DNA of 37,654 nucleotides from Candidatus Gastranaerophilales bacterium (GTDB taxonomy: Bacteria > Cyanobacteriota > Vampirovibrionia > Gastranaerophilales > Gastranaerophilaceae). The notes under the pieces are model-generated. The model searched no databases. It worked only from the letters and a program-made list of their open reading frames with translations, and was not told the origin of the DNA. The DNA is taken from NCBI GenBank assembly GCA_944325555.1, contig CALVAN010000019.1, positions 1-37,654 of the forward strand, written 5' to 3'. A program made the position numbers and the translations under genes. Position 1 is the stretch's first letter. Every line of letters starts with the position of its first letter. Positions 7,595 to 23,824 of this stretch are shown here, one piece after another.

Positions 7595-9230
7595 CGGGAT
7601 TTTCTAAAGCTCTATATATTTTAAGTTGTTCTTTTGCATAATCAATGGCATCAAGCTCCTTGTAAAACACCTGCTTTTCTCCGATTTGACTGACTATTTT
7701 GTGATCCTGCAGCTGTTTTAGCACCTGTTCATTTTTTATAACAAGAATTATCTGCACATCTTGCGATTGGAGTCTTAATATAATATCCTCAAGCGCAAAA
7801 ATTGCTGAAATATCAAGCAAATCGTCGGATTCGTAATTTAAAATAAGGTGTTTTGTTCCGAGCATATCTTCAAATTTTGAAATAAGCTGTGTTGCCGAGC
7901 CAAAAAAGAACTGTCCGCTTATGTGCACAACCCTTATTTGGTGCCGGTAATCTTCTTCAAGAACCCTTTCCAGCTCCATTATTTCTTCGTCATACACACT
8001 TTTGTGCACAAGCTTTGCTTTATCCGCAACACGTTTTGCATAAAGCAGTGCAGCCAGCGTAATTCCTGCACCTACGGCAAAAATAAGGTTGTAAAATACC
8101 GTCAGCAAAAATACAAGGCACAGGACATAAAGGTCGTCTTTTGGTGCGTATTTTAAAACCTTTAAAAGCTTCACGTCGATTATGTCATAGCCTATTTTAA
8201 TTAAAATAGCCGCAAGTACGGCAAGTGGAATCTGTGCCACAAAGCCCGAGCACTTGAACAAAAGTATAAGTAATAAGATCGGATTCACAACAGCACATAT
8301 TTTGGTTGTTGCACCTGCATTTATTGCTGCAACTGTTCGCATAGTGGCTGCAGTTCCGCCAAGCGAACCTGTTAGAGCACATAACATATTGCCCACCCCC
8401 TGTGCTGCAAGCAGATGTTTCGGGTTGTGTCTTTTTTTAGTCAAAGAGTCCGTGACAAGACCCGTGAGCATACTTTCTGCAGAAAATACAACCGCCACCG
8501 TAAAAATGTAGGGCAAATACTCTATAATTCGGTCTATTTCAAAATACGGCGCAACCAGATGAGGAAAGGCAACGGAAACATCGCTTATCCTTTCTATGTG
8601 AAGCCCTGTTTTGACGGATAACCACGTGCAAAAAATCAGTGCAATTATCTGCGAAGGAATTATTTTATTGACTGCCTTAGGCGTCAAAAATACAATTAAA
8701 AGAGTGGTTAAACCTATGAAAAAAGCCGACTGATTGAGTGTATGTATGCTGTGATGTAGATTCAGTACCGTGGAAACGGTTGAAGGCATAGCCTTGTGTC
8801 CTAAAAGCGGGTTGAGCTGGAGTATAATAATTATTATTCCGACCCCGTTCATAAAGCCTGAAATAACAGGATAGGGGATGTATTTTACAAGGTTTGGCAG
8901 GTTGGTTAAAGAAGCGGCAAGCTGTACAAGTGCAGCGCATAATAGCACTGTAACTGCGGCTTGCAGGTCATTTTTTAGTGCAAGCATCATTGATGCGACA
9001 ACTATTGCAACGGGTCCTGTAGTACCTGAAACAATAGGTACCCTTGGCCCCAGCAAACCGGCAACAAAACAAAGGATTACGGCACCCCATATTCCTGCTC
9101 CTGCACCGAATCCTGTTGCAACACCAAAAGCCAATGCCTGAGGCAGAGTAATAATAGCAGAGTTCACTCCACCAAAGATATCACCGACCACAATTTTGGA
9201 TTTTAGTTTTAGGGTTTGAATAAAACTCAT
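7587..9230 (-). CDS. SulP-family anion transporter with STAS domain
   Basis: This 547-residue protein resembles sulfate permeases and bicarbonate transporters of the SLC26/SulP family. The N-terminal signature is visible in IFGGVNSAIITLPQALAFGVATGFGAGAG (here in part, about 18-46), and roughly 10-14 membrane segments extend to about residue 410. Residues 430-540 form a cytosolic STAS domain (VVHISGQFFFGSATQL... LILNYESDDLLDISA). The transported anion is not deducible; sulfate, bicarbonate and dicarboxylate carriers share this layout. No good Shine-Dalgarno precedes the ATG at 9230. The gene lies 35 bases after the YkgJ-like gene on the same strand and probably shares its transcript. Confidence 0.9.
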   Translation of the reverse strand: MSFIQTLKLKSKIVVGDIFGGVNSAIITLPQALAFGVATGFGAGAGIWGAVILCFVAGLLGPRVPIVSGTTGPVAIVVASMMLALKNDLQAAVTVLLCAALVQLAASLTNLPNLVKYIPYPVISGFMNGVGIIIIILQLNPLLGHKAMPSTVSTVLNLHHSIHTLNQSAFFIGLTTLLIVFLTPKAVNKIIPSQIIALIFCTWLSVKTGLHIERISDVSVAFPHLVAPYFEIDRIIEYLPYIFTVAVVFSAESMLTGLVTDSLTKKRHNPKHLLAAQGVGNMLCALTGSLGGTAATMRTVAAINAGATTKICAVVNPILLLILLFKCSGFVAQIPLAVLAAILIKIGYDIIDVKLLKVLKYAPKDDLYVLCLVFLLTVFYNLIFAVGAGITLAALLYAKRVADKAKLVHKSVYDEEIMELERVLEEDYRHQIRVVHISGQFFFGSATQLISKFEDMLGTKHLILNYESDDLLDISAIFALEDIILRLQSQDVQIILVIKNEQVLKQLQDHKIVSQIGEKQVFYKELDAIDYAKEQLKIYRALENPEK

Positions 9231-9265
9231 AAACCGTATTTTAACATAAATTTAATAAGTCTGTA

Positions 9266-9892
9266 TTATTGTGGAATTTGTTTTTGTTCAAACCAGTCAA
9301 TGACAGGCTTGCTTTCTCCAAATTTTATATTAAAAGTTCTTTCATAATCTTCACAGGTCAAATATTTGTAGCTTATGTTAAAACCCAGAGGCTCTGCTTT
9401 TGTGTTGAGCTTTTTAAACTTTATAACTGAAATTGTTTTTTTTCTCAAATTCAGTACGTTTGAGTAGTTAAGCCCTTTAAAAGCACAAAACGGTGCTTTT
9501 ATTTTTTGATTTTCGGTATTGGTCATCAGCCCGAAGGTTCTGCAAATTATCCCTCTGTATTCGTAGACGCTGCAGCAGTCGTCAATCAAAAAAGGACAGT
9601 CGTAAAGAAACTTTTTCCCTCGATATTTTTTCTTTTTTTCCAGCACCTGTTTTATATTTGTTTCAATCTTTTTTTGCGTATCATTATCGAGCGTAAGTGC
9701 TCCGTTTAATAAATACCGAAACTCAACGGCAGAGTAAGGAAACTGGGCATGCCTGCAGCATTTTGAACAGCCTTTTTTGCAAAATATGTAAGGCTCTTGC
9801 GATGCAAAAAACTTTTGCAGTTTTGACTCAAGAAAATTCAAATAGGCTTTATAATTAGCCAGTATAATGCTTTGCTCATCAGTAACTATCAC
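9266..9892 (-). CDS. YkgJ-family Cys-cluster protein (putative zinc or Fe-S binding)
   Basis: This 208-residue protein carries the YkgJ/UPF0153 pattern: CKKGCSKCC (Cys38, 42, 45, 46) and further conserved cysteines in DDCCSVYEYRGIICRTFG and APFCAF. The family is thought to bind a metal ion; its biochemical role is unknown to me. No signal peptide or membrane segment is visible. The GTG start at 9892 has no Shine-Dalgarno and lies 7 bases from the -10 box of a good promoter, so the message may be leaderless. It appears to head a two-gene unit with the SulP gene. Confidence 0.8.
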   Translation of the reverse strand: MIVTDEQSIILANYKAYLNFLESKLQKFFASQEPYIFCKKGCSKCCRHAQFPYSAVEFRYLLNGALTLDNDTQKKIETNIKQVLEKKKKYRGKKFLYDCPFLIDDCCSVYEYRGIICRTFGLMTNTENQKIKAPFCAFKGLNYSNVLNLRKKTISVIKFKKLNTKAEPLGFNISYKYLTCEDYERTFNIKFGESKPVIDWFEQKQIPQ

Positions 9893-9898
9893 AACAAG

Positions 9899-9927
9899 AT
9901 TATACTGCTGTTATAAAAAATTGTTAA
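9899..9927 (-). promoter_or_regulatory. Promoter TTAACA-17-TATAAT for the YkgJ/SulP unit
   Basis: On the minus strand, TTAACA (9927-9922) and TATAAT (9904-9899) are 17 bases apart. The expected start of transcription falls on or next to the GTG start codon at 9892. Confidence 0.7.
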
Positions 9928-9931
9928 GTGC

Positions 9932-9975
9932 ACGGCTGCAATGTAAACCGTGTATATAAAATTGAAACAAACTGT
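9932..9975. repeat. Direct repeat flanking the structured 10-kb element, left copy
   Basis: The ACGGC...GTAA-CCGTGTATA...AAACTGT block resembles 10565-10613, where ACGGCTTAC and GTAAGCCGT form a 9-bp stem. The left copy keeps a shorter stem (ACGG/CCGT). Positions 9976-10052 hold one further inverted repeat (ATGACAG/CTGTCAT, about 10015-10048) and no gene. Confidence 0.55.
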
Positions 9976-10052
9976 CCTTGAGTGGGAGCGGAACAATCGA
10001 AGTAATACAGACGTATGACAGGGATTTTATTTACAGGTCAGCTGTCATTCTT

Positions 10053-10677
10053 GTATATGTTACGTAATTCAAAGATAGAAATAATTTTTTCTTAACATAA
10101 ATAATCAAAAAATCCGACCTTTGTGAAGTGAATTACAGAAAGTTTCACAAACAACTACAAGCGAGGTTTGTTTGAGGGCTATGTAATTATAACAATCACT
10201 TTAATATATCAAAGGAGAGCAATTTATATAGCCCGAGTTGCCGAGCTCAAGTTTGTGTTACTTTCTGTATGAACGGAACAGTAGGTCGGGAGTTTCTTGG
10301 GCTCCACCCGTTCTTTGCATCAAAGAATGGGTGGAACATAAAGCAGAAATTTATGTCTTTATTTTTTTATGTTCATTTCTTTTCTTTTGTATCTTGCAGG
10401 CAAAAGAAAAGAAACGAACCAAAGAAAAGAAAACCGGCGCTTATCAAAAGAAACAGTAAAGTGTTTTATCAGTAATTTTTCAGCGACAAGCTGCTGTAAA
10501 AATTACCTCAAAACACAACTGTTTCTAATCCAACTTCCGTCAGGGCTCTGCCCTGAAACCAGCTACGGCTTACAACGTAAGCCGTGTATAATAAACAGTG
10601 AATATCAAACTGTATAGAATAATTATATTTTCATAATAATCATTACAATATTTGTCACTGAATTACGTAACATATAC
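10053..10677. repeat. Structured non-coding element bounded by a 19-bp inverted repeat
   Basis: GTATATGTTACGTAATTCA at 10053-10071 is exactly inverted at 10659-10677. Inside, in order: a long hairpin with three nested stems (CAGAAAG 10136-10142 with CTTTCTG 10261-10267; CACAAAC 10146-10152 with GTTTGTG 10251-10257; GGGCTAT 10176-10182 with ATAGCCC 10228-10234); a 14-bp stem at 10304-10334; a 14-bp stem at 10371-10419 built on TTTCTTTTCTTTTG; a multi-segment stem at 10450-10525; CAGGGC/GCCCTG near 10545; and ACGGCTTAC/GTAAGCCGT near 10565. Short ORFs here merely read through hairpin arms. It may be a non-autonomous mobile element or a large structured RNA; I cannot choose. Confidence 0.6.
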
Positions 10678-10683
10678 CATTCT

Positions 10684-10774
10684 GAAGCATCTGGTTGTGC
10701 ATTTTGCGAGGATTTTGTGTGTTCAGAATCTGACCGGTGTTCTTTGTTGTCTTTCATAATGGTAAGATCCTGAG
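10684..10774 (+). repeat. Diverged dispersed repeat, copy 1
   Basis: It matches the reverse complement of 31144-31235: shared blocks include GGTTGTGCATT, TTGTGTGTTCA-AATCT and ATGGTAAGATC-TGAG. From 10775 to 10889 the DNA holds further short repeat text ending in the REP-like GATCCTTCGGCTGACG...CAGGATGACG and no gene. Confidence 0.65.
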
Positions 10775-10889
10775 TGTAAAGCAAATCCAAAAAATCTGCC
10801 CGACGGCAAAAACGTGTTGTCATTCAGAGATAAGCGGAACGCCAGGTAGATCCTTCGGCTGACGCCTCAGGATGACGTGGAAACTATCC

Positions 10890-11819
10890 TTATGATGACG
10901 TGTGTTTCTCTGATTTCAATATTTGTATATTTCTTGTTTCCGAAAAATCGTAACGTGCGGCTTTGATTTTTTCTCTTGTTTCTTCATCAAGGCTGTGGCC
11001 GTTAACCAGCCTGTCGACAAAACCGTTGTTTAATTTTACGGCTTTTGGCAGTGCGCCTATGTCATCTAAAATATCTTTTATTTGTACAAAATCATAAGAA
11101 TAAGACTGCTTTGACTGATATACAAGAGTTTCTCCGGTCATGGATTCAACGGGTTTTCCGCCTTCGTCAAAATACAGTTTAAAAATGGATTTTAAATCCT
11201 GAAGCTCGGACTGCATTGTCTGTACAGCCTGTTGTATTCTTAAATATCTTTCGAATAAATATTCTATGTTGCCGATTTGTTTTAGCTGCCAGTCGTATTT
11301 TTTTTCATAGAGTTTTTTTAGTTTTGGGTATGCCTGAGCCAGCCCTATTGTATCAGCCATTGCACGGTGTCTTGTGTCAAATTCCACCCCGAACTTGTTC
11401 ATAAGGTTTTCAAGCCCGTGGGATTCAAATTCCGGATAAACTTCTTTAAATAAGAATTGAGAGTCTATTCTCTGGTTTTCAATCGGCTTGCCGTATAATC
11501 TTTTTGAAGCTTCATTTATAAAGTTGTAATCAAATATGGCGTTATGGGCTACTATCGGATAGTCTCCAATGAATTCCAAAATTTTGGGCATGACTTCTTC
11601 TTCGGTAGGCTGGTCAGCGACCATTTCTTCCGTAATACCGTGCACCGCCATACTGGACTTTCTTATGTGCTGCTGCGGGTTAATCAAAGTTTCGTAGCTG
11701 TCTTTTATAACTCCGTTTTCGAGCCTTACGGCAGCAAATTCTATCATTCTCTCTTTTTTATAATCCAATCCCGTTGTTTCAACGTCAAGGACAATTTCTA
11801 TACATTTTTTTCTTGGCAT
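10890..11819 (-). CDS. DnaQ-like DEDDh 3'-5' exonuclease
   Basis: This 309-residue protein has an RNase T/DnaQ exonuclease domain in residues 6-175: motif I LDVETTGL (Asp12, Glu14), motif II AHNAIFDYNF, and motif III HRAMADT with the catalytic His and Asp. Such domains proofread DNA polymerase III (epsilon) or trim nucleic acids on their own. The 130-residue C-terminal part is charged and partly helical and unlike the short clamp-binding tail of E. coli epsilon, so assignment as the replicative proofreader is uncertain. GGGAG 7 bases before the ATG fixes the start. The last residues (HTSS) are encoded by text resembling the neighbouring repeat (GATGACGTG), suggesting the repeat supplied the stop region. 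Confidence 0.85.
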   Translation of the reverse strand: MPRKKCIEIVLDVETTGLDYKKERMIEFAAVRLENGVIKDSYETLINPQQHIRKSSMAVHGITEEMVADQPTEEEVMPKILEFIGDYPIVAHNAIFDYNFINEASKRLYGKPIENQRIDSQFLFKEVYPEFESHGLENLMNKFGVEFDTRHRAMADTIGLAQAYPKLKKLYEKKYDWQLKQIGNIEYLFERYLRIQQAVQTMQSELQDLKSIFKLYFDEGGKPVESMTGETLVYQSKQSYSYDFVQIKDILDDIGALPKAVKLNNGFVDRLVNGHSLDEETREKIKAARYDFSETRNIQILKSEKHTSS

Positions 11820-11979
11820 TCAAATCTCCCTCATTTCTATATTAGCACAAACGTTAATTCAGTCATCTAATTTAAAAATTTTATACATTAATACAAAATT
11901 GTAATGTCGTTAAAAAGCAGCAATAACTTGCAATACAGGGGGTAAATGCGCACAGGACTTGACTTTTTATCTTTATGAA

Positions 11980-12171
11980 GTAATATAAACAGGAAACAGG
12001 TTGTTTGATCTCTTGTGAAAGTCAAAGCAATCAGATTAAATAATATGTTTTACGGGGGAGGCTCCCTGTTAGATCAGATAGAGTTGTAATAAAAATATTG
12101 CACTACCCGGCTGATTAGAGTCTTTTAAATTAGCACTCCCCGTTTCGATTTACAAAACAGAGGATTAAAAT
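11980..12171 (+). promoter_or_regulatory. Structured 5' leader, class unknown
   Basis: The 350-base gap before the 12172 gene contains ACGGGGGAG (12052-12060), which can pair with CTCCCCGT (12136-12143) over about 80 bases with one bulged G. GGGA/TCCC (12056-12066) offers a competing local hairpin. The 3' arm ends 15 bases before the ribosome site AGAGGA. Such mutually exclusive stems are typical of riboswitches, but I do not recognise a known class. Positions 11820-11979 hold nothing I can name. Confidence 0.4.
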
Positions 12172-12771
12172 TTGATTAGAAAGTTACTAACACTAACCTT
12201 ACTACTCATCTCCTGCATTTTAGCAAATCCGCAATACTCACAAGCAGCAACATCAAAAGCCACAGTCAAAGACTACATTGTAAAACATTCTTTGGAGATG
12301 GGTGTCGATCCGGCTATTGGTTTGAGTATTGCAAAAATGGAATCAGGCTTTGTCCATGAAAAAAGAAGCTCCTTCGGGGCAGTAGGCGTTTTTCAGTTAA
12401 TGCCTTCAACAGCAAGAAGAATGGGGTATAACCCTTATCAACTCAGCGATAACATTAGAGGCGGTTTGATGTATTACAAAATGATGTATCAAAAATTCGG
12501 CTCTATGGAACTTGCGCTTGCTGCTTACAACGCAGGTCCCGGTAACGTGAGCAAATACAAAGGGGTTCCGCCTTTTGCTGAAACAAAAAGGTTTGTCAGC
12601 GGTATTATGAGCGAATATAATTCGCAAAAAATTAACCCTGATCCTGCTATTTTAAAATACAAACAAAATGGCGTGTACAAAGGACCTTTGATTATTGACA
12701 GAGAAGCAAACGTTTTGAGAAAAAATACTCTCGACAGTTTGCCTATAGTTACCTTAACGGGTGCTATTTAG
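12172..12771 (+). CDS. Exported lytic transglycosylase (SLT domain), probable lipoprotein
   Basis: This 199-residue protein begins at a TTG with AGAGGA 8 bases upstream. Residues 1-25 are an export signal; LISC at 12-15 fits a lipobox, so it may be a lipoprotein, though cleavage after SQA (25) is also possible. The SLT domain (about 33-150) is complete: catalytic Glu57 in SIAKMESGF, GAVGVFQLMP (69-78), and LAAYNAGPGN (116-125). The family cleaves the MurNAc-GlcNAc bond of peptidoglycan, forming 1,6-anhydroMurNAc. It is preceded by a structured leader that may control it and followed by a strong terminator, so it is a single-gene unit. Confidence 0.92.
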   Translation: MIRKLLTLTLLLISCILANPQYSQAATSKATVKDYIVKHSLEMGVDPAIGLSIAKMESGFVHEKRSSFGAVGVFQLMPSTARRMGYNPYQLSDNIRGGLMYYKMMYQKFGSMELALAAYNAGPGNVSKYKGVPPFAETKRFVSGIMSEYNSQKINPDPAILKYKQNGVYKGPLIIDREANVLRKNTLDSLPIVTLTGAI

Positions 12772-12786
12772 AAACTTAACTCTACA

Positions 12787-12840
12787 GAAAAAAGCATTTT
12801 GTAAAGATTTATCAAAAAATTACAAAATGCTTTTTTTTAT
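12787..12840 (+). terminator. Strong terminator after the transglycosylase gene
   Basis: AAAAAAGCATTTTGTAA pairs exactly with TTACAAAATGCTTTTTT and continues into a T-rich tail. Confidence 0.9.
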
Positions 12841-12879
12841 TTTAAAATATAAATATGGTTATAAACGAGCTGAGGACGT

Positions 12880-13560
12880 ATGTTTAAAGAGACGAAAACA
12901 CACGAGGTCACTACCGACGTAGTTATTTTTACGATTAAAGACGACAAACTCAAAGTATTGCTGGTAAGACGTGCAAATGAGCCGTTTAAAGGCAAATGGG
13001 CGCTGCCGGGCGGTTATATTCGTATCTCCGAGACATTAGATGATGCGGCGTTGCGTATTCTTAAAGAAAAAACTAACGTACAAAATATTTATCTTGAACA
13101 GCTTTATACTTTTGGTGATCCGCTTCGTCACCCTACGTCACGTGTAATTACCTGTGCTTATTTTGCATTAATTCGCTCCGATGACATTGTACTTTCGTTT
13201 GAAGAAAATACTGAAATTACCGAGGTAAAATGGCATCCGGTTAACAGCTTGCCGGCTCTGGCATTCGACCACAAGGAAATTATTGAATATTCGCTTAAAA
13301 GAACAAGAGAACGTCTTGAGTTCTGCCCGATAGCGTTCCAGCTGCTGCCGCAGAAGTTTACGCTGACAGAACTTCAAAAAGCTTACGAAATGATTCTTAT
13401 GAAAAAGCTCGACAAACGTAATTTCAGGAAGAAATTTTTGTCGCTTTCAATTTTAAAAGAGCTGGACGAATACACAAAATCAGGCTCAAAACGCCCCGCA
13501 AGGCTTTATTCCTTCGACAAAATTACACTTGATTCCAAGAGAGGACATTTCTTCTCGTAA
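12880..13560 (+). CDS. NrtR-like transcriptional regulator (degenerate Nudix domain plus winged helix)
   Basis: Residues 8-145 form a Nudix fold and 150-226 a winged-helix region (FTLTELQKAYEMIL..., FRKKFL...ILKEL), the arrangement of NrtR, a repressor of NAD genes, and of related sugar regulators. The Nudix box is broken: after GGYIRISE the expected REUXEEXGU reads RILKEKTNV, so two catalytic Glu positions and the Gly are lost. The domain therefore probably senses a ligand such as ADP-ribose and does not hydrolyse it (inference from the family). GAGGA 5 bases before the ATG supports the start. Neighbours do not reveal the regulon. Confidence 0.82.
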   Translation: MFKETKTHEVTTDVVIFTIKDDKLKVLLVRRANEPFKGKWALPGGYIRISETLDDAALRILKEKTNVQNIYLEQLYTFGDPLRHPTSRVITCAYFALIRSDDIVLSFEENTEITEVKWHPVNSLPALAFDHKEIIEYSLKRTRERLEFCPIAFQLLPQKFTLTELQKAYEMILMKKLDKRNFRKKFLSLSILKELDEYTKSGSKRPARLYSFDKITLDSKRGHFFS

Positions 13561-13578
13561 ACAACTATTAACCTGTAT

Positions 13579-13623
13579 AAAAAAGAAGGACCCTATTATG
13601 GAATTATGGAGTCTTTCTTTTTA
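13579..13623. terminator. Bidirectional terminator between converging genes
   Basis: AAAAAGAA-GAC pairs with GTC-TTCTTTTT with a 19-base loop, giving T-runs on both strands between the NrtR-like and PcrA genes. Confidence 0.6.
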
Positions 13624-13646
13624 TGTGTTTTATGAAAAACTGTTTT

Positions 13647-16262
13647 CTAAAATTTCTTTAAATTTGCATACAAAGCGTCAACTGCTTTTTTGCCCTGTTT
13701 GCCGAAATCTATCACATACATTGACGAGGAACCTATTTGTTTTATTTCTTCAATGTGCCCTATTCCGAATTTTTCATGAAATACTCTGTCACCTTGTTTA
13801 AAACCGGAGGAAGTTTCTGCGTGGATGGCTGCCTGTGCCGCTTCTTTTGCCTTTTTTTCTTCAAGCATTCTTTTTATAGGGTTATCCTCAAGAATCTTTT
13901 TGACTCTTTCCTCGTCTTTTGCTTTATTTTGTTCGTTTTTAACAACAAAAGCTTCTCTTCTGACAAAGTTGTTTTGCTTATGTGGAGAGAGAGGTTTGTA
14001 TGCATTTCCGCTGTTTGTGTTGTCTTCTCCGTTGTAAACAGGTTTTTTCTTAACAACTTTGCTTATACTCTGTGTGTTGCTTAAGCCTGCTGACGGTGCA
14101 ATAAACCCTTTGCCAAAACTCGTTGTTTTTTCAACATACCCCGAGGAATCCGTGCGTGCTTGAGATTTAATTTTGTTAACAGCCTGATTGAAGGTGCCTT
14201 TTCTGCCAGAGGAATAGCTGTTTTCATCAGAGGTGTTTCTTTCTGTGAGGTTGTAGGGGATTTCTTCAAGAAAACGGCTTGGCGGGTTGTATTTTGTATC
14301 GCCCCACATCTGACGTCTTTTTGCGTAGGTGATAAAGAGTTTTTGTTTGGCACGTGTTACGCCTACATACATAAGGCGGCGTTCTTCTTCCATTTCCGTA
14401 TTGTTGTTAAGCGAACGGCTGTGCGGGAAGATGCCTTCCTCAAGCCCAGCAAGAAATACCGTGTCAAACTCCAGACCTTTTGCTGCGTGCAAAGTCATAA
14501 GAGTAACCGCATTGTCGGCGTCAGGAGTTTCGTCAAGGTCGCTGACCAGTGCCACCTGTGCAAGGAATTCGCCCAGTATATTTGATTCGTCCTCGGGGGC
14601 AAAATCACGGGCAACGTTGACAAGCTCCTGCAGGTTTTCTATACGGGATTGAGATTCCTCTGTGTCTTCTTGCTTTAATTCTGCAAGGTATCCCGTTTCT
14701 TCAATAATAAATGCAATAAACTCAGGCAGAGAAAGTGAGGTTCTGTTTTTGTCCAGCCTGTCTATAAGCTCGGCAAAATTTTTAAGTTTTGATTTTACGC
14801 CCGAGGAAAAATCATCGTAGGCGTCAATGTTTTGAATAACTTCATATATCGAGGAGTCTAAACCCGAAGCTATGTCCTGCAGTTTTTTGACGGTTGTGTC
14901 GCCGATGGAACGTTTAGGAACATTAATGATTCTTTTTAAACTCTGAGAGTCATGCCTGTTGTATATAAGTTTTAAGTAGGCAATGAGGTCTTTGATTTCT
15001 TTACGGTCGTAGAACTTTAACCCGCCGACCATGCGGTAAGATATTCCCTGAGAAATCAGGGCTTCTTCTATTGCACGTGATTGAGAGTTCGTTCTGTATA
15101 AAACAGCGCAGTCATTGAGGTTGCGTACGTTGCTGCGGATTTTATTTGCAATGTAGTAGGCTTCGCCAGACTCGTCCTGCGCCTCGTAGATATCAATTTT
15201 TTCGCCCTGACCTTTTGTTGAGTACAGGTTTTTGCTCAGACGTTCCGTGTTGTTGACTATGATTGCGTTTGCCGCATCAAGGATTGTGCCGACGGAGCGG
15301 TAGTTTTTTTCCAGTTTTATGAGCTTTGCGTTTTTGTAATCCGACTGGAAGTTAAGGATAATCTTGTAATCAGCCCCTCTCCAGCTGTAGATGGACTGGT
15401 CGACATCACCTACAACACACAAGCTTCTGCCTTTGAGTTCTTCGTCTGTTTTTCCGTTGGAATACAGGTGACGTATAAGCATATACTGGCTTATGTTGGT
15501 GTCTTGAAACTCGTCGACAAGAATGTGTGAGAATCTTTCGTGGTATTTGTTTCTTACTTCTTCGTTTGTGGAAAGCAGATTAACCGTCAAAAGCAGCATA
15601 TCGTCAAAATCTATTGCGTTGTTTGCAAGCAGCTGTTTTTCGTATTCGTAATAAATTTCGGAAATCTTCTGGCTGCGGTAGTCCTTTGCACGGGTTGCAA
15701 AGGCGTAGGCATCCTGCATCTTGCTTTTAGCGTTGCTGATTGCTGCTTTAACAAGTTTTGGCGCAAAGGTTTTTTCATCAATGTTGAGTTTCTTAATGGC
15801 GTTTTTGATTATGGTATTTGTGTCGGTTTCGTCATAGATAACGTAGTTGTTGTCCCATTTTCGGCCGTCGGGGCTTTTGTAGTTTTCTATGTCGAATCTC
15901 AATATTCTGCCGCAAATGTTGTGGAAGGTGCCTACCCACATTTTTTTTACGACTTCTTCGCCTATCATTTTAGAAAGACGTTCTCTCATTTCTTTTGCTG
16001 CTTTGTTGGTGAAGGTTACTGCAAGAATTTTGTACGGGTTAACCCCTGATTTTACAAGGTTAACTATACGTGTTGTCAGAACTTTTGTTTTTCCGCTGCC
16101 TGCGCCGGCAAGCACAAGCAATGCTCCTTCTTTTTCAACAACCGCCTGTCTTTGTTCGTCATTAAGACCCTTGAGTAATTCTTCCAATGCTCCCCCTGAT
16201 ACTCTAAACAATTTGCGCTGTATCTTCCGCTGCCGCAAATATCGTGATTTTTGTGTAGCCAA
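13647..16262 (-). CDS. pcrA: PcrA/UvrD-type SF1A DNA helicase
   Basis: This 871-residue 3'-5' helicase is used in nucleotide excision repair, mismatch repair and removal of RecA or stalled replisomes. It has GLNDEQRQAV (Q motif), Walker A AGAGSGKTK (52-60), DEFQDTN (Walker B), GDVDQSIYSWRGAD, LEKNYRS, LMTLHAAKGLEFDTVF and EERRLMYVGVTRAK. The C-terminal 50 residues (GDRVFHEKFGIGHI... VIDFGKQGKKAVDALYANLKKF) form the Tudor-like RNA-polymerase-binding module known in PcrA. The TTG start at 16262 has no ribosome site; a TTG nearer GLNDEQ (residue 26) is an alternative, since PcrA proteins usually begin 8-10 residues before that motif. A plus-strand promoter for the divergent gene overlaps this start. 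Confidence 0.95.
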   Translation of the reverse strand: MATQKSRYLRQRKIQRKLFRVSGGALEELLKGLNDEQRQAVVEKEGALLVLAGAGSGKTKVLTTRIVNLVKSGVNPYKILAVTFTNKAAKEMRERLSKMIGEEVVKKMWVGTFHNICGRILRFDIENYKSPDGRKWDNNYVIYDETDTNTIIKNAIKKLNIDEKTFAPKLVKAAISNAKSKMQDAYAFATRAKDYRSQKISEIYYEYEKQLLANNAIDFDDMLLLTVNLLSTNEEVRNKYHERFSHILVDEFQDTNISQYMLIRHLYSNGKTDEELKGRSLCVVGDVDQSIYSWRGADYKIILNFQSDYKNAKLIKLEKNYRSVGTILDAANAIIVNNTERLSKNLYSTKGQGEKIDIYEAQDESGEAYYIANKIRSNVRNLNDCAVLYRTNSQSRAIEEALISQGISYRMVGGLKFYDRKEIKDLIAYLKLIYNRHDSQSLKRIINVPKRSIGDTTVKKLQDIASGLDSSIYEVIQNIDAYDDFSSGVKSKLKNFAELIDRLDKNRTSLSLPEFIAFIIEETGYLAELKQEDTEESQSRIENLQELVNVARDFAPEDESNILGEFLAQVALVSDLDETPDADNAVTLMTLHAAKGLEFDTVFLAGLEEGIFPHSRSLNNNTEMEEERRLMYVGVTRAKQKLFITYAKRRQMWGDTKYNPPSRFLEEIPYNLTERNTSDENSYSSGRKGTFNQAVNKIKSQARTDSSGYVEKTTSFGKGFIAPSAGLSNTQSISKVVKKKPVYNGEDNTNSGNAYKPLSPHKQNNFVRREAFVVKNEQNKAKDEERVKKILEDNPIKRMLEEKKAKEAAQAAIHAETSSGFKQGDRVFHEKFGIGHIEEIKQIGSSSMYVIDFGKQGKKAVDALYANLKKF

Positions 16263-17281: not shown

Positions 17282-17316
17282 TAATAGTTGAGTATAGTTT
17301 TGTTGTGAGGGATAAG

Positions 17317-18393
17317 ATGGAATTTATTGAAAAATTAAACCAGTTAAAAGAGCGTGTTATCAGCTTAAAAGACAATTTACAGACAGAAGAAGCAACAAAA
17401 AATGCTTTAATAATGCCGTTTCTTAGTACACTTGGATATGATGTTTTCAACCCGTTAGAGGTCGTTCCTGAATTTATTCCTGATAGTCGTTTAAAAAAAG
17501 ATGAAAAAGTTGATTATGCCATTATTAAAGATGGTAAACCAATAATTTTACTTGAATGTAAAAAAGTTGATAATGACAAGTTGGATGTAAAAAAACATGC
17601 CAATCAGCTATTCAAATATTTTACTGCTTCAAAAGCTAAATTTATTATTTTGACTAATGGTATAGTATATAAATTTTTCTCAGATATTGAAGAACCTAAT
17701 ATATTGGATAAAGAACCATTTTTTACTTTTAATCTGTTGGAGTTTAAAGAAAATCAAGTTGAAACTCTTTCTGAATTTTGCAAGGAAAATTTTGATATTG
17801 AAAAAGCCTATTCTAATGCAGGAGATTTAAGATACATAAGGCAATTCGAAGAAGTTATTGAAAATGAATACCGTAATCCCTCTGATGATTTTATAAGATA
17901 CTTGTTAGATAAGTCTGAAATTTATGATGGTGTAAAAACAGCAAAAGTTGTTGAAAAGCACAGAAAAACGACTATTGAAGCATTTAATCTTTTTATGTCT
18001 AAAGTAATGAAAACATCTTTAGATTTCAGCTTAACCTCAAAACAAGAAGAAAAAGATAACAAAAAAGAAATAATAACTACATCTCAGGAAATTGAGGGCT
18101 ATGCTATTATAAAAGCTATATTGGAAGGAAATTTTGATATAAACAGAATTAACTATAGAGATAATGCAAGTTATTTCAATATAATTATAGACAACAATAT
18201 ATTAAAAACTGTTTGCAGGCTGTATTTAAACAAGTCAAACAAATATATTGCATTTTTGTCCTCAAATGATAATAAGGAAAAACGAAATACTGAAGAAAAA
18301 ATATTAATAAACTCCGTAAATGATATATTCAAATATAAAGATAAAATTTTAAACAGAGTGAAAGAAATAGAAGCAAATTATGCTAAAAAATAA
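17317..18393 (+). CDS. Stand-alone HsdR N-terminal-type PD-(D/E)XK nuclease domain protein
   Basis: This 358-residue protein has the type I restriction R-subunit N-terminal nuclease pattern in residues 20-130: TEEATKNALIMPFLSTLGYDVF, then VDYAI (Asp66) and PIILLECKK (Glu80, Lys82), the D-ExK catalytic set. The rest (about 150-358) is helical with no helicase motifs; HsdR proper is about 1000 residues with a DEAD-type motor. No hsdM or hsdS is nearby. Such single-domain proteins occur in many bacteria with unknown roles, possibly in defence. The ATG at 17317 has GAGG 7 bases upstream; an in-frame GTG at 17305 would overlap that site. The gene is AT-richer than its neighbours, which hints at transfer but is weak evidence here. 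Confidence 0.75.
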   Translation: MEFIEKLNQLKERVISLKDNLQTEEATKNALIMPFLSTLGYDVFNPLEVVPEFIPDSRLKKDEKVDYAIIKDGKPIILLECKKVDNDKLDVKKHANQLFKYFTASKAKFIILTNGIVYKFFSDIEEPNILDKEPFFTFNLLEFKENQVETLSEFCKENFDIEKAYSNAGDLRYIRQFEEVIENEYRNPSDDFIRYLLDKSEIYDGVKTAKVVEKHRKTTIEAFNLFMSKVMKTSLDFSLTSKQEEKDNKKEIITTSQEIEGYAIIKAILEGNFDINRINYRDNASYFNIIIDNNILKTVCRLYLNKSNKYIAFLSSNDNKEKRNTEEKILINSVNDIFKYKDKILNRVKEIEANYAKK

Positions 18394-19150: not shown

Positions 19151-19819
19151 CTATATATATGGGCAGGCTCTGTAATATTTGCATTGTTTGCAGGCGGGTG
19201 TTTTGTTGCAGTAAAAATTTGTGTTTTCGTTGATGTTTGTGATTATGTCCAGAAGCTGCTTTCTGTACTGCATATAAAGCTCTTGCGTAAACGGTATGTT
19301 TATTCTGCTGTTTGCCGCCAGATTCAAATATTGCAGGGAAAGCTCCTCAGGCATTTTGATAAGTTTTTTCAGTCTTAAAATTTCATACATGCATAAAAGG
19401 TAAAAGCTGGTCTGAAACTTTACGTTTTCGGGCTTAAAGCTCGAGCCGGTTTTCCAGTCGAGAATAATATAGTTTTCGTCAAATTCAAACAGTGCGTCAA
19501 TTCTACCCGTGAGCCAGTAATTGTCGATTTTAAGGTTAAAAGGATACTCGCTTTCGATTACTTTGTAATTTTTTACATCGCTGTTTTTGAAGTTGTACCA
19601 CAAAAGCTTGTCGGCTTTGGGCAGTGCCTCTACTAACTTTGTGACCTCATTGCCCTTGAGGTAATAATTGATAATGTTGTGCAGGTTGTTTCCGGTTTTT
19701 GTTTGGGAAATCGGCTCCACTATGTGCACACGGTCTATGTAGCAGAGCTTGTATTTCTGCGGGCATTCGTCGTAGGTTTGCAGTTTGGCAAGTGTGTATG
19801 TTGTTGTGTTATTTTGCAT
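19151..19819 (-). CDS. RecB/AddB/Cas4-type PD-(D/E)XK nuclease with Fe-S cysteine set
   Basis: This 222-residue protein has the complete RecB-family nuclease pattern: TYDECPQKYKL (Cys19), GNNLHNIINYYL (His47), GRIDALFEF (Asp108), IILDWKTG (Asp121, Lys123), and FQTSFYLLCMYE (QxxxY-like). The C-terminus has C210-x2-C213-x5-C219, which with Cys19 matches the 4Fe-4S ligands known in AddB and Cas4. It is therefore probably an iron-sulfur DNA exonuclease acting with the helicase encoded just upstream. The ATG at 19819 has GGGAG 7 bases before it; a longer frame to 19888 would read into the dispersed repeat and is rejected. The helicase stop and this start are separated by one copy of that repeat. 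Confidence 0.85.
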   Translation of the reverse strand: MQNNTTTYTLAKLQTYDECPQKYKLCYIDRVHIVEPISQTKTGNNLHNIINYYLKGNEVTKLVEALPKADKLLWYNFKNSDVKNYKVIESEYPFNLKIDNYWLTGRIDALFEFDENYIILDWKTGSSFKPENVKFQTSFYLLCMYEILRLKKLIKMPEELSLQYLNLAANSRINIPFTQELYMQYRKQLLDIITNINENTNFYCNKTPACKQCKYYRACPYI

Positions 19820-19839
19820 TTTCAACTCCCGAATTTTAG

Positions 19840-20012
19840 TCTGAGATGGACCTCGCTTGTAGTGGTGCACAGAGTGCGACAGGTGCAAAATCCAAGATTT
19901 TATGCAGGTGCCCCCCTTGTACTTGTTGCCGGCGCCCTTGTTATATAGTTAATATTGTACTTGTTTATTGCGCCGGTTCAATAAGTCGGCGGGGTCAGTT
20001 GACTATATGAAA
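19840..20012. repeat. Dispersed 173-bp repeat, copy B
   Basis: It is homologous to 6180-6353 and lies between the helicase and nuclease genes. Its right end supplies the last two codons and stop of the helicase gene (the minus strand of TATATGAAA reads TTC ATA TAG in frame). In this copy ATATAGTTAA near 19945 can pair with TTGACTATAT at 20000-20009. Confidence 0.8.
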
Positions 20013-23000
20013 GATTTAAGAAAGTCTTCAATCAGACAGGATATTCTGTAATCTTTGACTTTTGAAAATCTTTTGTATTTTTTTGCGGCGCTTATGCAGA
20101 GTTTTTTCTTTGCACGTGTAACAGCCACGTAAAAAAGCCTTAAATTCTCCTGTGCCGTAAATATTTTTAGCTCCTTTTCATCTTTTTTCTTATAATTCAA
20201 ATTTAAACCTTTTACAGCTTCAATAAAACGCTCTTTTGACTTAATTTTTATTGCGTCTAAATCAACCTGCAGAGTTTCCTCGCACAGTGCGGGGATAAAC
20301 ACGTAATCAAACTCATCTCCTTTTGACTTGTGATAGGTCATTATGTGTATTGCGCTTTCCGTTTGTGTTTGATTTTCGTCCTCGCTGAAAAATTTAAACT
20401 TGCTCAAAATCGGTTTTTTAGAGAGCTCCTCTATTCTTTCAAGCAGCTGTTCCGTGTTTTTGTATTGTTCGGACATCCGTTTTAAAAGCAGCGCAATTAT
20501 GTAAATATTGGATTTTTCTACATCAGTGTTGTAGTAGTAGTTTCCTGTTTTTACAACGGTTTCTTCAAGCGTAAGCCTTGTGGTTTCAAGCCAGTAGTTT
20601 AAATCCCATAACAGCTGCGCAAGTGCTGCGGATTGCAGGTCATCCTGTTTTTGAAGAATAAATGGCGTTTTTAAATCTTTTATAAACTGCAAATCCTCGT
20701 TTGTGAGGTTCAGTATTCTCTGGCGTTTCATCTCCTGTGCGGCGTTAAGCACGGTTTCGTTTTGCCACGGATGGGCAATGAATTTCAGTAAAGAAAACAC
20801 AAGCGCAAATACAGCCTGATTCTCCAGACAATCGCTTCTGCTGATTACGTTATAGCCGTAGTTGCCGAAAAATTGCGAATACTCGTCTATTTTGTAGTTG
20901 TTTCTCACAAGTATTGCAACCGAGGCATTTTTGTCGCTTTTAAAGATATTTCTTATCTGCTGGAGAATATAGGCATTTTCTTCATTGTAGTTTTCAAAGG
21001 TTTGCACCTCGAGCCCGTTTTTTACCTCGGGGTTTTTGCCGGTTACTCCCTGCATTTTTATGTCAAAAAATGCGTCTTTTAATTCTTCTTTTGTTTTTGC
21101 GTAATCTATCAGGTTATTTGCCGTTTCGTAAACTTTTTTTGAACATCTCTGGGAATGATTCATTGATACGTTGGTGCTTGTTTTTACAAAATCTTTGAAC
21201 CCGTCTAAGTCCGCATTTGTAAAAGTTGCGGTAATCGCCTGATTAATATCTCCGCAGCGTATAAGGTTCTTGTGTTTTGCAGAGAGAAGGTTCAATAATT
21301 TTTGCTGTATTAGCGAGGAATCCTGAGCTTCGTCCTCGATTACGTAGCGGCAGAGCTCCTGATAATATTGCGCAACGTCTTTGTTTTCCTCTAATATTTT
21401 TACGCAATACACCAGCATATCATCGTAATCTATAATATTCCTGCTTTTGAGATAGTTGTTGTAAATATTATAGAATTTTATAAAAGTCTGCAGTTCTTTG
21501 TCCTTTACATAATTCACGTGTGGAATTTTATTGTTATCAGCCAATTTTAAAGAAGAAACTGCTTTTTCGTATTTGTCAAAATCCTCCTGCGAAAGCTGCA
21601 TTTTTGCCATAATCTCTCTTAAAATTTTCTGGCGCAGGTTGTCGTCACACACCTCAAAATCAGCGGTTAAACCTGCTTTTACGTAATTGGCGTTTTCTTT
21701 TAAAATTCTTAGCGCAAGCCCGTGGATGGTGGAGATGTTGGGCAGTTTTTCAAGATTGGGGCAGGCTTTTTTTATCCTTTCCTTAAAGTTTCTTGCAGCC
21801 GAATCCATATAAGTCATAACAAATATGTTTTCGCTTTTGACGCCTTGAGCAAGGAGTTTTATTATTAACGCAAGCAGAATAGTTGTTTTGCCCGCACCGG
21901 GGACGGCAGAAATTGCCATTTTACCGTTTTTGTAGTTCAAAACAGGCTTCTGGTCATCACGGGGAGTGAATTTAAAATCTATTTTTTCTGCCTCGGTTTC
22001 TTCTTTCGGGGTGATAAATTCTTCTATCCCGCCGAAATTTTCGTTCCCCTCTGTATCAAACAAACTGGAATAAGAATATATTTTTTCTTGCGCAAGCAAG
22101 GCGAGTTTGCGCAGTTGTTTTTTTGTTTTAAGTTGACCGAGTGCAATATTGTCTTCGTAGGTAAACTCTTTTTTATCCCACGATTTTTGAAAAACCCACG
22201 CATTGTATAAGGTTCCGAAATCCTCTTTTGTCCATAAAGAGGAGCTTGTATCAAGCCAGAACTGGTATTTTGTACTGAGCGAAAAATCCGTAATCTTTTG
22301 CGCCGTGGCAACCACCACCGATTTTTCTTCTACCTCGGGAGAATATGACGGATTCTCGGACATTATGGAGTTTTCCAGCTGGTTTAGTATAAGGCGCTGC
22401 ATTGCGGGATTGCTTTTTTGCGCCTCAAAAACCGTTTCAAAATCCTGTATCTGTTTTATAAAAAAGTTGAATTTTTCAAGCTGCTGCAGCTCGTCAAACG
22501 ACGGGTTAACAAGATTTTGATAAATTGCAAAAACCTTCTGTGATAAGGGTATATCCTCTTGTTTTATGCTGTTAATTGTTTCTTCCAGCGCCTTAAGCGA
22601 CTCATTGTACACGGGGTTTTGCAAATCAACCGCTTTTATTTCGCACGCCTTGTTGTAGTGCTCAACCACGGGCAGACAGTATTTTACGGGGATTTTAAGC
22701 AGGCTGCCCAGCAGATTGCGCAGCTTAAAAACGTCCGTGTCCTGTCCTAAAGCAAGGTTGAGCAGGGTCATTACGTCTTTTACAAGCGGCGTTTCCCTGA
22801 GCTTTTCGCTGCCGGAAAAATAAGAAATCTTTATGTTCAGCGGCTTAAAAATCTCCTCAAAAGTGAATTTTAAGGTTGTGTCTATAACCGGCGTAATTAC
22901 AGAGATTTCATCAGGCTGTGTGCCGTTTTTAATAAGCTCCGCTATTTTTTGCGCTGCGGCATTGAGCATCTCCAGCCTGCGTGAATAATCTGAATGCTGC

Positions 23001-23824
23001 GTTGCAAGCGTAATTTCCGGCATGTCGTCAAGGTTTATTTGCTCTTCTTCACTAAAGATTTTTTCCAGATTTTCTACGGTTTTTATGTCCGTGTTTAAAA
23101 AGCCGAGGCGTGACGACCCGTAACGGTCATAGCCTATCACAACACCTTTTAACGCCGGCTTTATGTGTTTTATAAACTCCGCCTCAAGCTGTGTGATTTC
23201 GTCAGCGTCGTCTAAAATAAGATATTTTATATCCTTAAAACAATCAGTTTTTTTGTAAATATAGCTGAAAATCGCTGCCTGCCTTATGTAATCAAAGGTG
23301 CGGTATTCCAGTGTCTTTTTTTTGTAAATTTCAATTGCCTGTTTTGCATCCGGTGCAAAGCTTTCGCCTAAAATTGCGCTTTTTTCTTTTACTTCGCCCT
23401 CTGAAAGGGAATTGTTAACAATAAGCGAATACCTGCGAAACAGCTGGTGAATAAGGTTTATTTTGGAGTTGTAATCGCTGAACCCGACTTCTTTTATAGC
23501 CTGCCTGAAAAATAACTGTGATATCTCCAGCCCCGTAAGGTTCGGTGTGATTACATCGGCGCCTGTGTTGATGTCGTTTTGGATATTGCACCATTCGTTA
23601 AGTATTGTGTTGTAAACAAGCCCGAAAAATGTATGTATTTGCGGGTTTTCAAAGTGGGTTATCTTAAGAGTGTTTTTTACCTCGTTTATGAATACGGATT
23701 TTTTAAAGGAGTTTTGCACAAGCACAAGTATATTTTCCGCCGGAATCCCCTGTTCCAGCAGATTGTTATACTCTTTAACAAGACGTTTTGTTCTGTCTGT
23801 TTTTGTGCTGCCCTGTATAAGCAT
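20003..23824 (-). CDS. Double SF1 helicase, AddB-like plus AddA-like motors fused
   Basis: This 1273-residue protein holds two UvrD/Rep-type cores. The first (1 to about 600) starts with a P-loop remnant (QGSTKTDRT, lacking GxGKT) and a Walker B-like YLILDDADE. The second (about 620-1273) is intact: SAVPGAGKTT (Lys near 646), FVMTYMDSAARNFKERI, IEDEAQDSS (near 830), CGDINQAITATFTNAD, TYHKSKGDEFDYVF and LRLFYVAVTRAKKKL. No nuclease domain is fused; the nuclease is the next gene. By analogy with RecBC and AddAB, the dead core may scan or hold one strand while the live one translocates 3'-5' (inference). ATG 23824 has GGGGA 7 bases upstream; a GTG 48 bases earlier is less likely. TACAAT near 23908-23913 (minus) may be its -10. 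Confidence 0.85.
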   Translation of the reverse strand: MLIQGSTKTDRTKRLVKEYNNLLEQGIPAENILVLVQNSFKKSVFINEVKNTLKITHFENPQIHTFFGLVYNTILNEWCNIQNDINTGADVITPNLTGLEISQLFFRQAIKEVGFSDYNSKINLIHQLFRRYSLIVNNSLSEGEVKEKSAILGESFAPDAKQAIEIYKKKTLEYRTFDYIRQAAIFSYIYKKTDCFKDIKYLILDDADEITQLEAEFIKHIKPALKGVVIGYDRYGSSRLGFLNTDIKTVENLEKIFSEEEQINLDDMPEITLATQHSDYSRRLEMLNAAAQKIAELIKNGTQPDEISVITPVIDTTLKFTFEEIFKPLNIKISYFSGSEKLRETPLVKDVMTLLNLALGQDTDVFKLRNLLGSLLKIPVKYCLPVVEHYNKACEIKAVDLQNPVYNESLKALEETINSIKQEDIPLSQKVFAIYQNLVNPSFDELQQLEKFNFFIKQIQDFETVFEAQKSNPAMQRLILNQLENSIMSENPSYSPEVEEKSVVVATAQKITDFSLSTKYQFWLDTSSSLWTKEDFGTLYNAWVFQKSWDKKEFTYEDNIALGQLKTKKQLRKLALLAQEKIYSYSSLFDTEGNENFGGIEEFITPKEETEAEKIDFKFTPRDDQKPVLNYKNGKMAISAVPGAGKTTILLALIIKLLAQGVKSENIFVMTYMDSAARNFKERIKKACPNLEKLPNISTIHGLALRILKENANYVKAGLTADFEVCDDNLRQKILREIMAKMQLSQEDFDKYEKAVSSLKLADNNKIPHVNYVKDKELQTFIKFYNIYNNYLKSRNIIDYDDMLVYCVKILEENKDVAQYYQELCRYVIEDEAQDSSLIQQKLLNLLSAKHKNLIRCGDINQAITATFTNADLDGFKDFVKTSTNVSMNHSQRCSKKVYETANNLIDYAKTKEELKDAFFDIKMQGVTGKNPEVKNGLEVQTFENYNEENAYILQQIRNIFKSDKNASVAILVRNNYKIDEYSQFFGNYGYNVISRSDCLENQAVFALVFSLLKFIAHPWQNETVLNAAQEMKRQRILNLTNEDLQFIKDLKTPFILQKQDDLQSAALAQLLWDLNYWLETTRLTLEETVVKTGNYYYNTDVEKSNIYIIALLLKRMSEQYKNTEQLLERIEELSKKPILSKFKFFSEDENQTQTESAIHIMTYHKSKGDEFDYVFIPALCEETLQVDLDAIKIKSKERFIEAVKGLNLNYKKKDEKELKIFTAQENLRLFYVAVTRAKKKLCISAAKKYKRFSKVKDYRISCLIEDFLKSFI

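Follow-up and report, generated by a model that had tools for sequence, protein, structure and literature searches.

The locus described here raises the question of whether two adjacent genes, one encoding a long protein with two helicase-like halves and the other a small nuclease, represent an AddAB-like machine with its parts re-sorted, as a first-pass annotation of the sequence had proposed, and whether they supply the only end-resection enzyme of the genome. The window (the whole stretch of DNA analysed, 37,654 nucleotides) is contig C19 of a 2.32-Mb genome, 99.95% complete, from a member of the order Gastranaerophilales, a gut-dwelling relative of the cyanobacteria. The features of interest are all on the reverse strand:

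19151-19819 (-), free PD-(D/E)XK nuclease of the AddB/AdnA/Cas4 type, 222 aa (ATG at 19819, stop at 19151)
19163-19192 (-), cysteine motif C-x2-C-x5-C of the nuclease (C210, C213 and C219), with the fourth cysteine, C19, at 19763-19765
19820-20002 (-), intergenic spacer of 183 bp; most relatives have overlapping genes here instead
20003-23824 (-), fused helicase, 1273 aa, a single ORF (ATG at 23824, stop at 20003)
20006-21991 (-), C-half of the fused helicase (residues 612-1273), UvrD-like SF1A motor without a nuclease domain
20111-20143 (-), motif VI, LRLFYVAVTRA (residues 1228-1238), from sequence
21314-21337 (-), motif II, EDEAQDSS (residues 830-837), from sequence
21881-21907 (-), Walker A of the live motor, AVPGAGKTT (residues 640-648), from sequence
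22025-23824 (-), N-half (residues 1-600), AddB/RecC-like SF1 core without motor motifs, from profiles and an AlphaFold2 model
23198-23221 (-), Walker-B-like LILDDADE (residues 202-209), kept, from sequence
23789-23815 (-), decayed Walker A, QGSTKTDRT (residues 4-12), from sequence

By Pfam, the 1273-aa protein matched PF00580 (5e-49) and PF13361 (5e-27), with a UvrD-type helicase at residues 624-1248; the curated NCBIfam equivalog cut-off was reached by neither this protein nor the 222-aa nuclease. As in an AddA-type motor, all helicase motifs are present in the C-half, yet it belongs to a clade of its own apart from AddA: in the tree, the fused C-halves (95/87) group with the cyanobacterial motors (100/100) at 100/100 support, and PcrA too falls outside this clade. 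Walker A, DEAQD, SQRC and VAxTRA are kept across the phylum sample, in which the catalytic residues are invariant. The C-half is, as its motifs read, an intact, active-looking 3′-5′ SF1A motor. Other helicase genes were noted as well, including a PcrA/UvrD orthologue in the window (13647-16262), less than 4 kb from the fused gene, PcrA-type genes also near the fused gene at loci L046 and L064, and a 973-aa protein joining a PHP-type/TIGR00375 domain to a UvrD helicase (L010, G000:C7, 4589-7510). The window also encodes a 362-aa protein (17305-18393) with an N-terminus resembling, by eye, type I restriction HsdR-type nuclease domains.

Residues 1-600, the N-half, drew no separate match from Pfam, and an order-only profile gave one marginal match against the PDB (Rep, 0.016). 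A phylum-wide N profile matched PcrA at 1e-7 over profile positions 2-519, nearly its whole length, and the AlphaFold2 model of this half (41 sequences; pLDDT 89.6, pTM 0.86) folds as an SF1 core. In Foldseek, UvrD (3e-19) and AddB (1e-18, TM 0.62-0.64) rank together, followed at lower ranks by AdnB (TM up to 0.68), RecB and RecC. With VIA-align, model residues 1-600 were placed onto AddB 4-684 with a Z of about 21 and 5.6 Å over about 555 residues, and onto UvrD/PcrA with Z 24-29, often at a larger rmsd, such that UvrD is equally good by E-value or Z and neither method tells the two apart for this half. We instead favour AddB because of anatomy and the pairing with a motor. The N-half begins at the P-loop and has no Q motif ahead of it, its motif V reads ATxQKxxD rather than TxHxxKGLE, and no motif VI arginine was seen in the alignments. 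AddB too starts at its P-loop with the Q motif absent upstream, and this feature, an inactive core running from Walker A, is present in the N-half when the model is set against AddB. Given the altered motif V and the absent motif VI arginine, the N-half should not be a motor even with an intact Walker A. The first-pass claim of two SF1 cores, one dead and one live, on a single 1273-aa chain is thus borne out by the motifs, the Pfam matches, the N profile against PcrA and the model.

The same annotation had pointed to a destroyed P-loop, and here the evidence is divided. The motif is decayed in the window organism, with Walker A of the N-part kept in 0 of 41 aligned sequences of its family (f1), and the decayed form was found only in f1 and f6. 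However, G-x4-G-K-[ST] is kept in relatives from families f2, f3, f4, f7 and f9 and in 10/10 sampled cyanobacteria (alignment A4), ruling out the destroyed P-loop as a defining trait. In the Synechococcus elongatus-type genome, the N-part copy has lost Walker A. Judged from sequence, P-loop loss in the N-half is a late, local decay.

The free nuclease matched PDDEXK_1 (PF12705) at 1.6e-18, with a weaker match to Cas4. Residues H47, E91, D108, D121-x-K123, Q136 and Y140 are present in every row tested, C19 and C213 are kept in nearly all rows, and C-x2-C-x5-C occurs in the nuclease of 71/74 relatives. The ORF, Cys19 and the C-x2-C-x5-C motif are as first claimed. The structure model (pLDDT 90.7) finds its closest fold in the nuclease domain of AdnA (Z 17.3), followed by the cyanobacterial ACE1 (Argonaute-associated Cas4) proteins (15.9) and the AddB nuclease (13.6). 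The nuclease appears active, and its cysteines, arranged as the C...C-x2-C-x5-C of AddB-type nucleases, are of the Fe-S type and may hold a putative cluster. In rows L050, L051 and L052, from some f1 genera, the Fe-S cysteines are lost and the catalytic residues are kept. The spacer between the two genes is unique sequence, not a repeat within the window.

Within Gastranaerophilales, the fused gene belongs to the core, being present in 141/146 genomes of the order. Among the 80 closest named relatives, the N-C fusion is intact in all 80, and the nuclease directly follows the fused gene in 74, mostly overlapping it by 4-32 bp; an arrangement kept to this extent is not chance. The synteny survey, the structure comparison of the N-half and the nuclease matches to AdnA and AddB together uphold the proposal of an AddAB-like, re-sorted architecture. 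The fusion also occurs in f9, another family of the class, and in f2 and f6 the nuclease lies elsewhere in the genome rather than beside the fused gene. G304, G309 and G069 lack the fused helicase and also show no small nuclease in a PF12705 search, which can miss members, having missed a G012 nuclease that profile A3 detects; the N match is marginal in G304 and G309. A possible exception is G004, with no N match yet with nuclease fragments. The fused helicase is larger (about 1480-1580 aa) in G102 (L064, 4974-9704), G051 and G124, where the N-half match is split near residues 260-277; the N-half of L064 is about 300 residues longer.

The first-pass annotation overlooked the great age of the parts and their presence as unfused genes throughout Cyanobacteria. 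In photosynthetic cyanobacteria, the N profile detects a stand-alone protein of 677-750 aa without a family name, the best match to the C-half is a stand-alone UvrD-like protein of 736-785 aa, which is not PcrA and lies at another locus, and the nuclease profile detects a 256-278-aa protein at a third locus. Over 223 Cyanobacteriia genomes, strong N and strong motor matches occur in 187 each and the nuclease in 179. RecC (PF04257) was found in 25 of these genomes, all of family f36, and in a tally by hand none of the 25 has a strong N, motor or nuclease. This exclusion reflects essentially one clade, i.e., one replacement event, and f36 should be the marine Prochlorococcus/Synechococcus, the recBCD-bearing group of an earlier report (PMC5101192), in which recB, recC or recD was absent from Synechocystis 6803, Nostoc 7120 and other models. 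Family f54 and G179 have N and the motor with no nuclease detected by the profile, and f55 has an AddAB pair in place of the three-part system. Seven genomes of family f34 (genus g94; G197, G280, G429, G438, G455, G464 and G472) have neither RecC nor any strong part. The fusion and the adjacent nuclease in Gastranaerophilales, together with the fusion in f9, act as a Rosetta stone connecting the unlinked genes of cyanobacteria.

A plasmid search with a cyanobacterial N protein led to the Salinibacter ruber M8 plasmid pSR56, in which four consecutive same-strand genes, forming one operon, encode N (717 aa; A4 5e-63), the motor (772 aa; A5 2e-123), the nuclease (294 aa; A6 7e-33) and a 785-aa RecJ. 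In genome G180, recJ starts 52 bp from the N gene, in divergent orientation. No phage record matched the Salinibacter N protein. A match on an Ilyobacter plasmid (H3) was set aside as an ordinary-looking UvrD without partners.

Mutant phenotypes have already been published for genes that are probably the unfused counterparts of these parts. In a transposon screen of S. elongatus, natural transformation and RSF1010 maintenance rose when uvrD (not PcrA), a cas4-like nuclease, recJcy or Synpcc7942_0992 was lost (Taton 2023, PMC10653904), a loss-of-function phenotype common to these genes. In Thermus, transformation of addAB mutants rises 100-1000-fold (PMC9751324). The effect is in the same direction in both organisms. 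As for the identity of the screened genes, we take genome G420 to be S. elongatus (PCC 6301, near-identical to 7942), in which the N gene lies at 619.0-621.0 kb and kaiA, presumably tag 1218, at 379 kb. Its 333-aa phosphoribulokinase and 403-aa FNR match prk (0977) and petH (0978) as listed in PMC3025956. Interpolation from petH (633 kb) to kaiA puts 0992 at about 618 kb, and gene counts give 0989-0994 for the N gene, so by position, within about three genes, Synpcc7942_0992 is probably the N gene. The published description of 0992 as PD-(D/E)XK-like is a poor fit to the N-part, which matches no PD-(D/E)XK model. Equating 0992 with one of the two small S. elongatus nucleases was rejected on position. 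By elimination, the uvrD of the screen should be the motor, and its cas4 is either the 255-aa protein belonging to this nuclease family, encoded at 1976 kb, or the other small PD-(D/E)XK protein (659 kb). The accessible portion of that paper ties the four genes neither into one complex nor to AddAB (PMC10653904).

Whether the system works alone in the window organism was addressed by a search of the whole genome. Contig C40 (L011, G000:C40) carries an AddAB-type pair at 8739-13753, with recA (14324-15349) upstream on the same strand. The AddB-like protein (854 aa) has a C-terminal PD-(D/E)XK/cysteine domain of the Fe-S type, and the gene of the AddA-like helicase (816 aa, without a nuclease domain) overlaps that of the AddB-like protein. 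Such a pair is also found in order members G076, G013, G132 and G137, and in G044, G304, G015, G134 and others, UvrD and a nuclease are instead fused on one chain of about 1000-1035 aa. In G420, an AddA/AddB pair (L312, G420:C1, 431-436 kb) sits beside the three-part system; it is missing in G169, of the same genus. Given that AddAB-type genes coexist with the three-part system in the window genome and in G420, the latter is not always the main enzyme. That it should be the sole end-resection enzyme of the genome, as the first-pass annotation had entertained, is therefore ruled out by the pair on the recA contig; as a reading of the system it is very unlikely, considering that other order members keep such a pair or the fusion, though it is possibly true for many cyanobacteria without RecC.

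We consider it likely that an AddAB-like helicase-nuclease of three parts, acting on DNA ends, was ancestral to Cyanobacteriota and is kept by nearly all of them, and that the two genes are its partly fused version, specific to this lineage. This explanation draws on the parts, their motifs and folds, the fusion, the operon, the co-occurrence and the exclusion with RecC; we infer complex formation, polarity, strand choice, substrate and the partnership with RecJ. By analogy with AddAB, AdnAB and RecBCD, the N-half would serve as an AddB/RecC-type scaffold that parts the duplex and keeps hold of one strand, the C-half as an SF1A translocase drawing the DNA end 3′-5′ into the complex, and the separate PD-(D/E)XK protein as the only nuclease of the complex, trimming the unwound strands on exit. 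RecJ would probably be a partner, finishing 5′-strand resection. The likely job would be double-strand-break processing for RecA along with degradation of linear or incoming DNA, in the window organism beside the second, AddAB-type pair.

An alternative is that the system is a nuclease serving chiefly in defence or as a barrier to DNA uptake, in the manner of Gabija or the Cas4-like/Argonaute-linked nucleases, and that it destroys incoming DNA and has no central role in break repair. In S. elongatus, the gain in transformation and plasmid maintenance is common to Argonaute loss (PMC10653904), the motor matches GajB models, and the full Salinibacter operon sits on a plasmid, all of which would suit such a role. 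However, addAB mutants show the same phenotype (PMC9751324), the system is absent where RecBCD is present, and, in contrast to patchy defence systems, it is inherited vertically, usually in a single copy, and present in almost every member of the order and class. Nor is the locus a defence island, given that PADLOC gives generic GajB/Cas4 matches only, no other clear defence genes are nearby and the distribution is that of a core gene. On balance, we regard a mainly defensive role as improbable.

Rather unlikely, in our view, is that the helicase is a UvrD-type repair enzyme and the nuclease a Cas4-like protein unrelated to it, the two serving other pathways, such as replication restart or transcription-coupled repair, and being loosely linked. 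Nuclease and motor genes lie apart in every cyanobacterium sampled, in f2 and in f6, and the loss of Fe-S cysteines in some f1 genera is also in keeping with separate roles. Against this, N and the motor nearly always occur fused or together in a genome, the nuclease adjacency holds in most close relatives, the four genes share an operon in another phylum, and the three order members without the fused helicase also show no small nuclease.

Beyond the two genes themselves, we give even chances to a broader proposal, namely that bacteria have a fourth class of machine for resecting DNA ends, next to RecBCD, AddAB and AdnAB. Built from separately encoded scaffold, motor and nuclease (with RecJ), it would be the main enzyme for resecting double-strand breaks in almost all cyanobacteria without RecBCD; Gastranaerophilales would have fused it into two chains, and RecBCD would have taken its place once, in marine picocyanobacteria. 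The models Synechocystis 6803 and Nostoc 7120 are reported to be without recBCD (PMC5101192), which bears on how they resect double-strand breaks and handle linear DNA in transformation, and the three-part system may be their long-missing RecBCD/AddAB counterpart. Three candidate genes can now be named, two without a repair annotation, linked to one another through the fusion, the operon, their co-occurrence and a mutant phenotype already published.

Among known systems, AddAB and RecBCD have reportedly been surveyed by Cromie in 2009. No paper joining scaffold, motor and nuclease was found in the open-licence literature searched, nor was any on PDB entries 9iab/9iac. The nearest hint comes from Clostridiales, in which UvrD-Cas4-like fusions and UvrD + Cas4-like operons likewise link a UvrD-type motor to a pfam12705 nuclease, and DNA repair was suggested for the operon form; the accessible text describes no AddB/RecC-type scaffold (Hudaiberdiev 2017, PMC5704561). 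Unlike the fusion form, the nuclease here is separate, and in Gastranaerophilales such a fusion is a separate gene. In contrast to Gabija, the neighbour is a PF12705 protein rather than GajA (OLD family), and the motor matches GajB models as a generic UvrD only. A CRISPR Cas4 context is not apparent either, with no cas genes (cas1/cas2) among the longer ORFs of the window.

Like RecBCD, the system combines a non-motor RecC-like SF1 subunit with one motor and one nuclease; however, there is no RecD, with no RecD-type ORF beside the two genes in the window, the nuclease is not fused to the motor, and PF04257 (RecC) has no match in the N-half. Mycobacterial AdnAB, with one weak and one strong motor, provides the closest solved nuclease fold, in the AdnA domain, but each of its two chains carries both motor and nuclease, an arrangement absent here. 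The likeness extends to AddAB (RexAB; Bacillus subtilis, 3u4q), which likewise has a live SF1A motor, an AddB-type inactive core starting at the P-loop and an Fe-S-type PD-(D/E)XK nuclease. AddAB is a heterodimer that works on dsDNA ends under Chi-type regulation. In it, a C-terminal nuclease domain is borne by AddB and usually also by AddA, whereas here neither helicase-like part bears one, the nuclease is free (222-290 aa), and scaffold and motor are fused in that order. These findings suggest that the scaffold, motor and nuclease of AddAB are exchangeable modules, split and re-fused in evolution, and a system failing a defining feature of each of AddAB, RecBCD and AdnAB is best called a modular variant of the AddAB/RecBCD kind.
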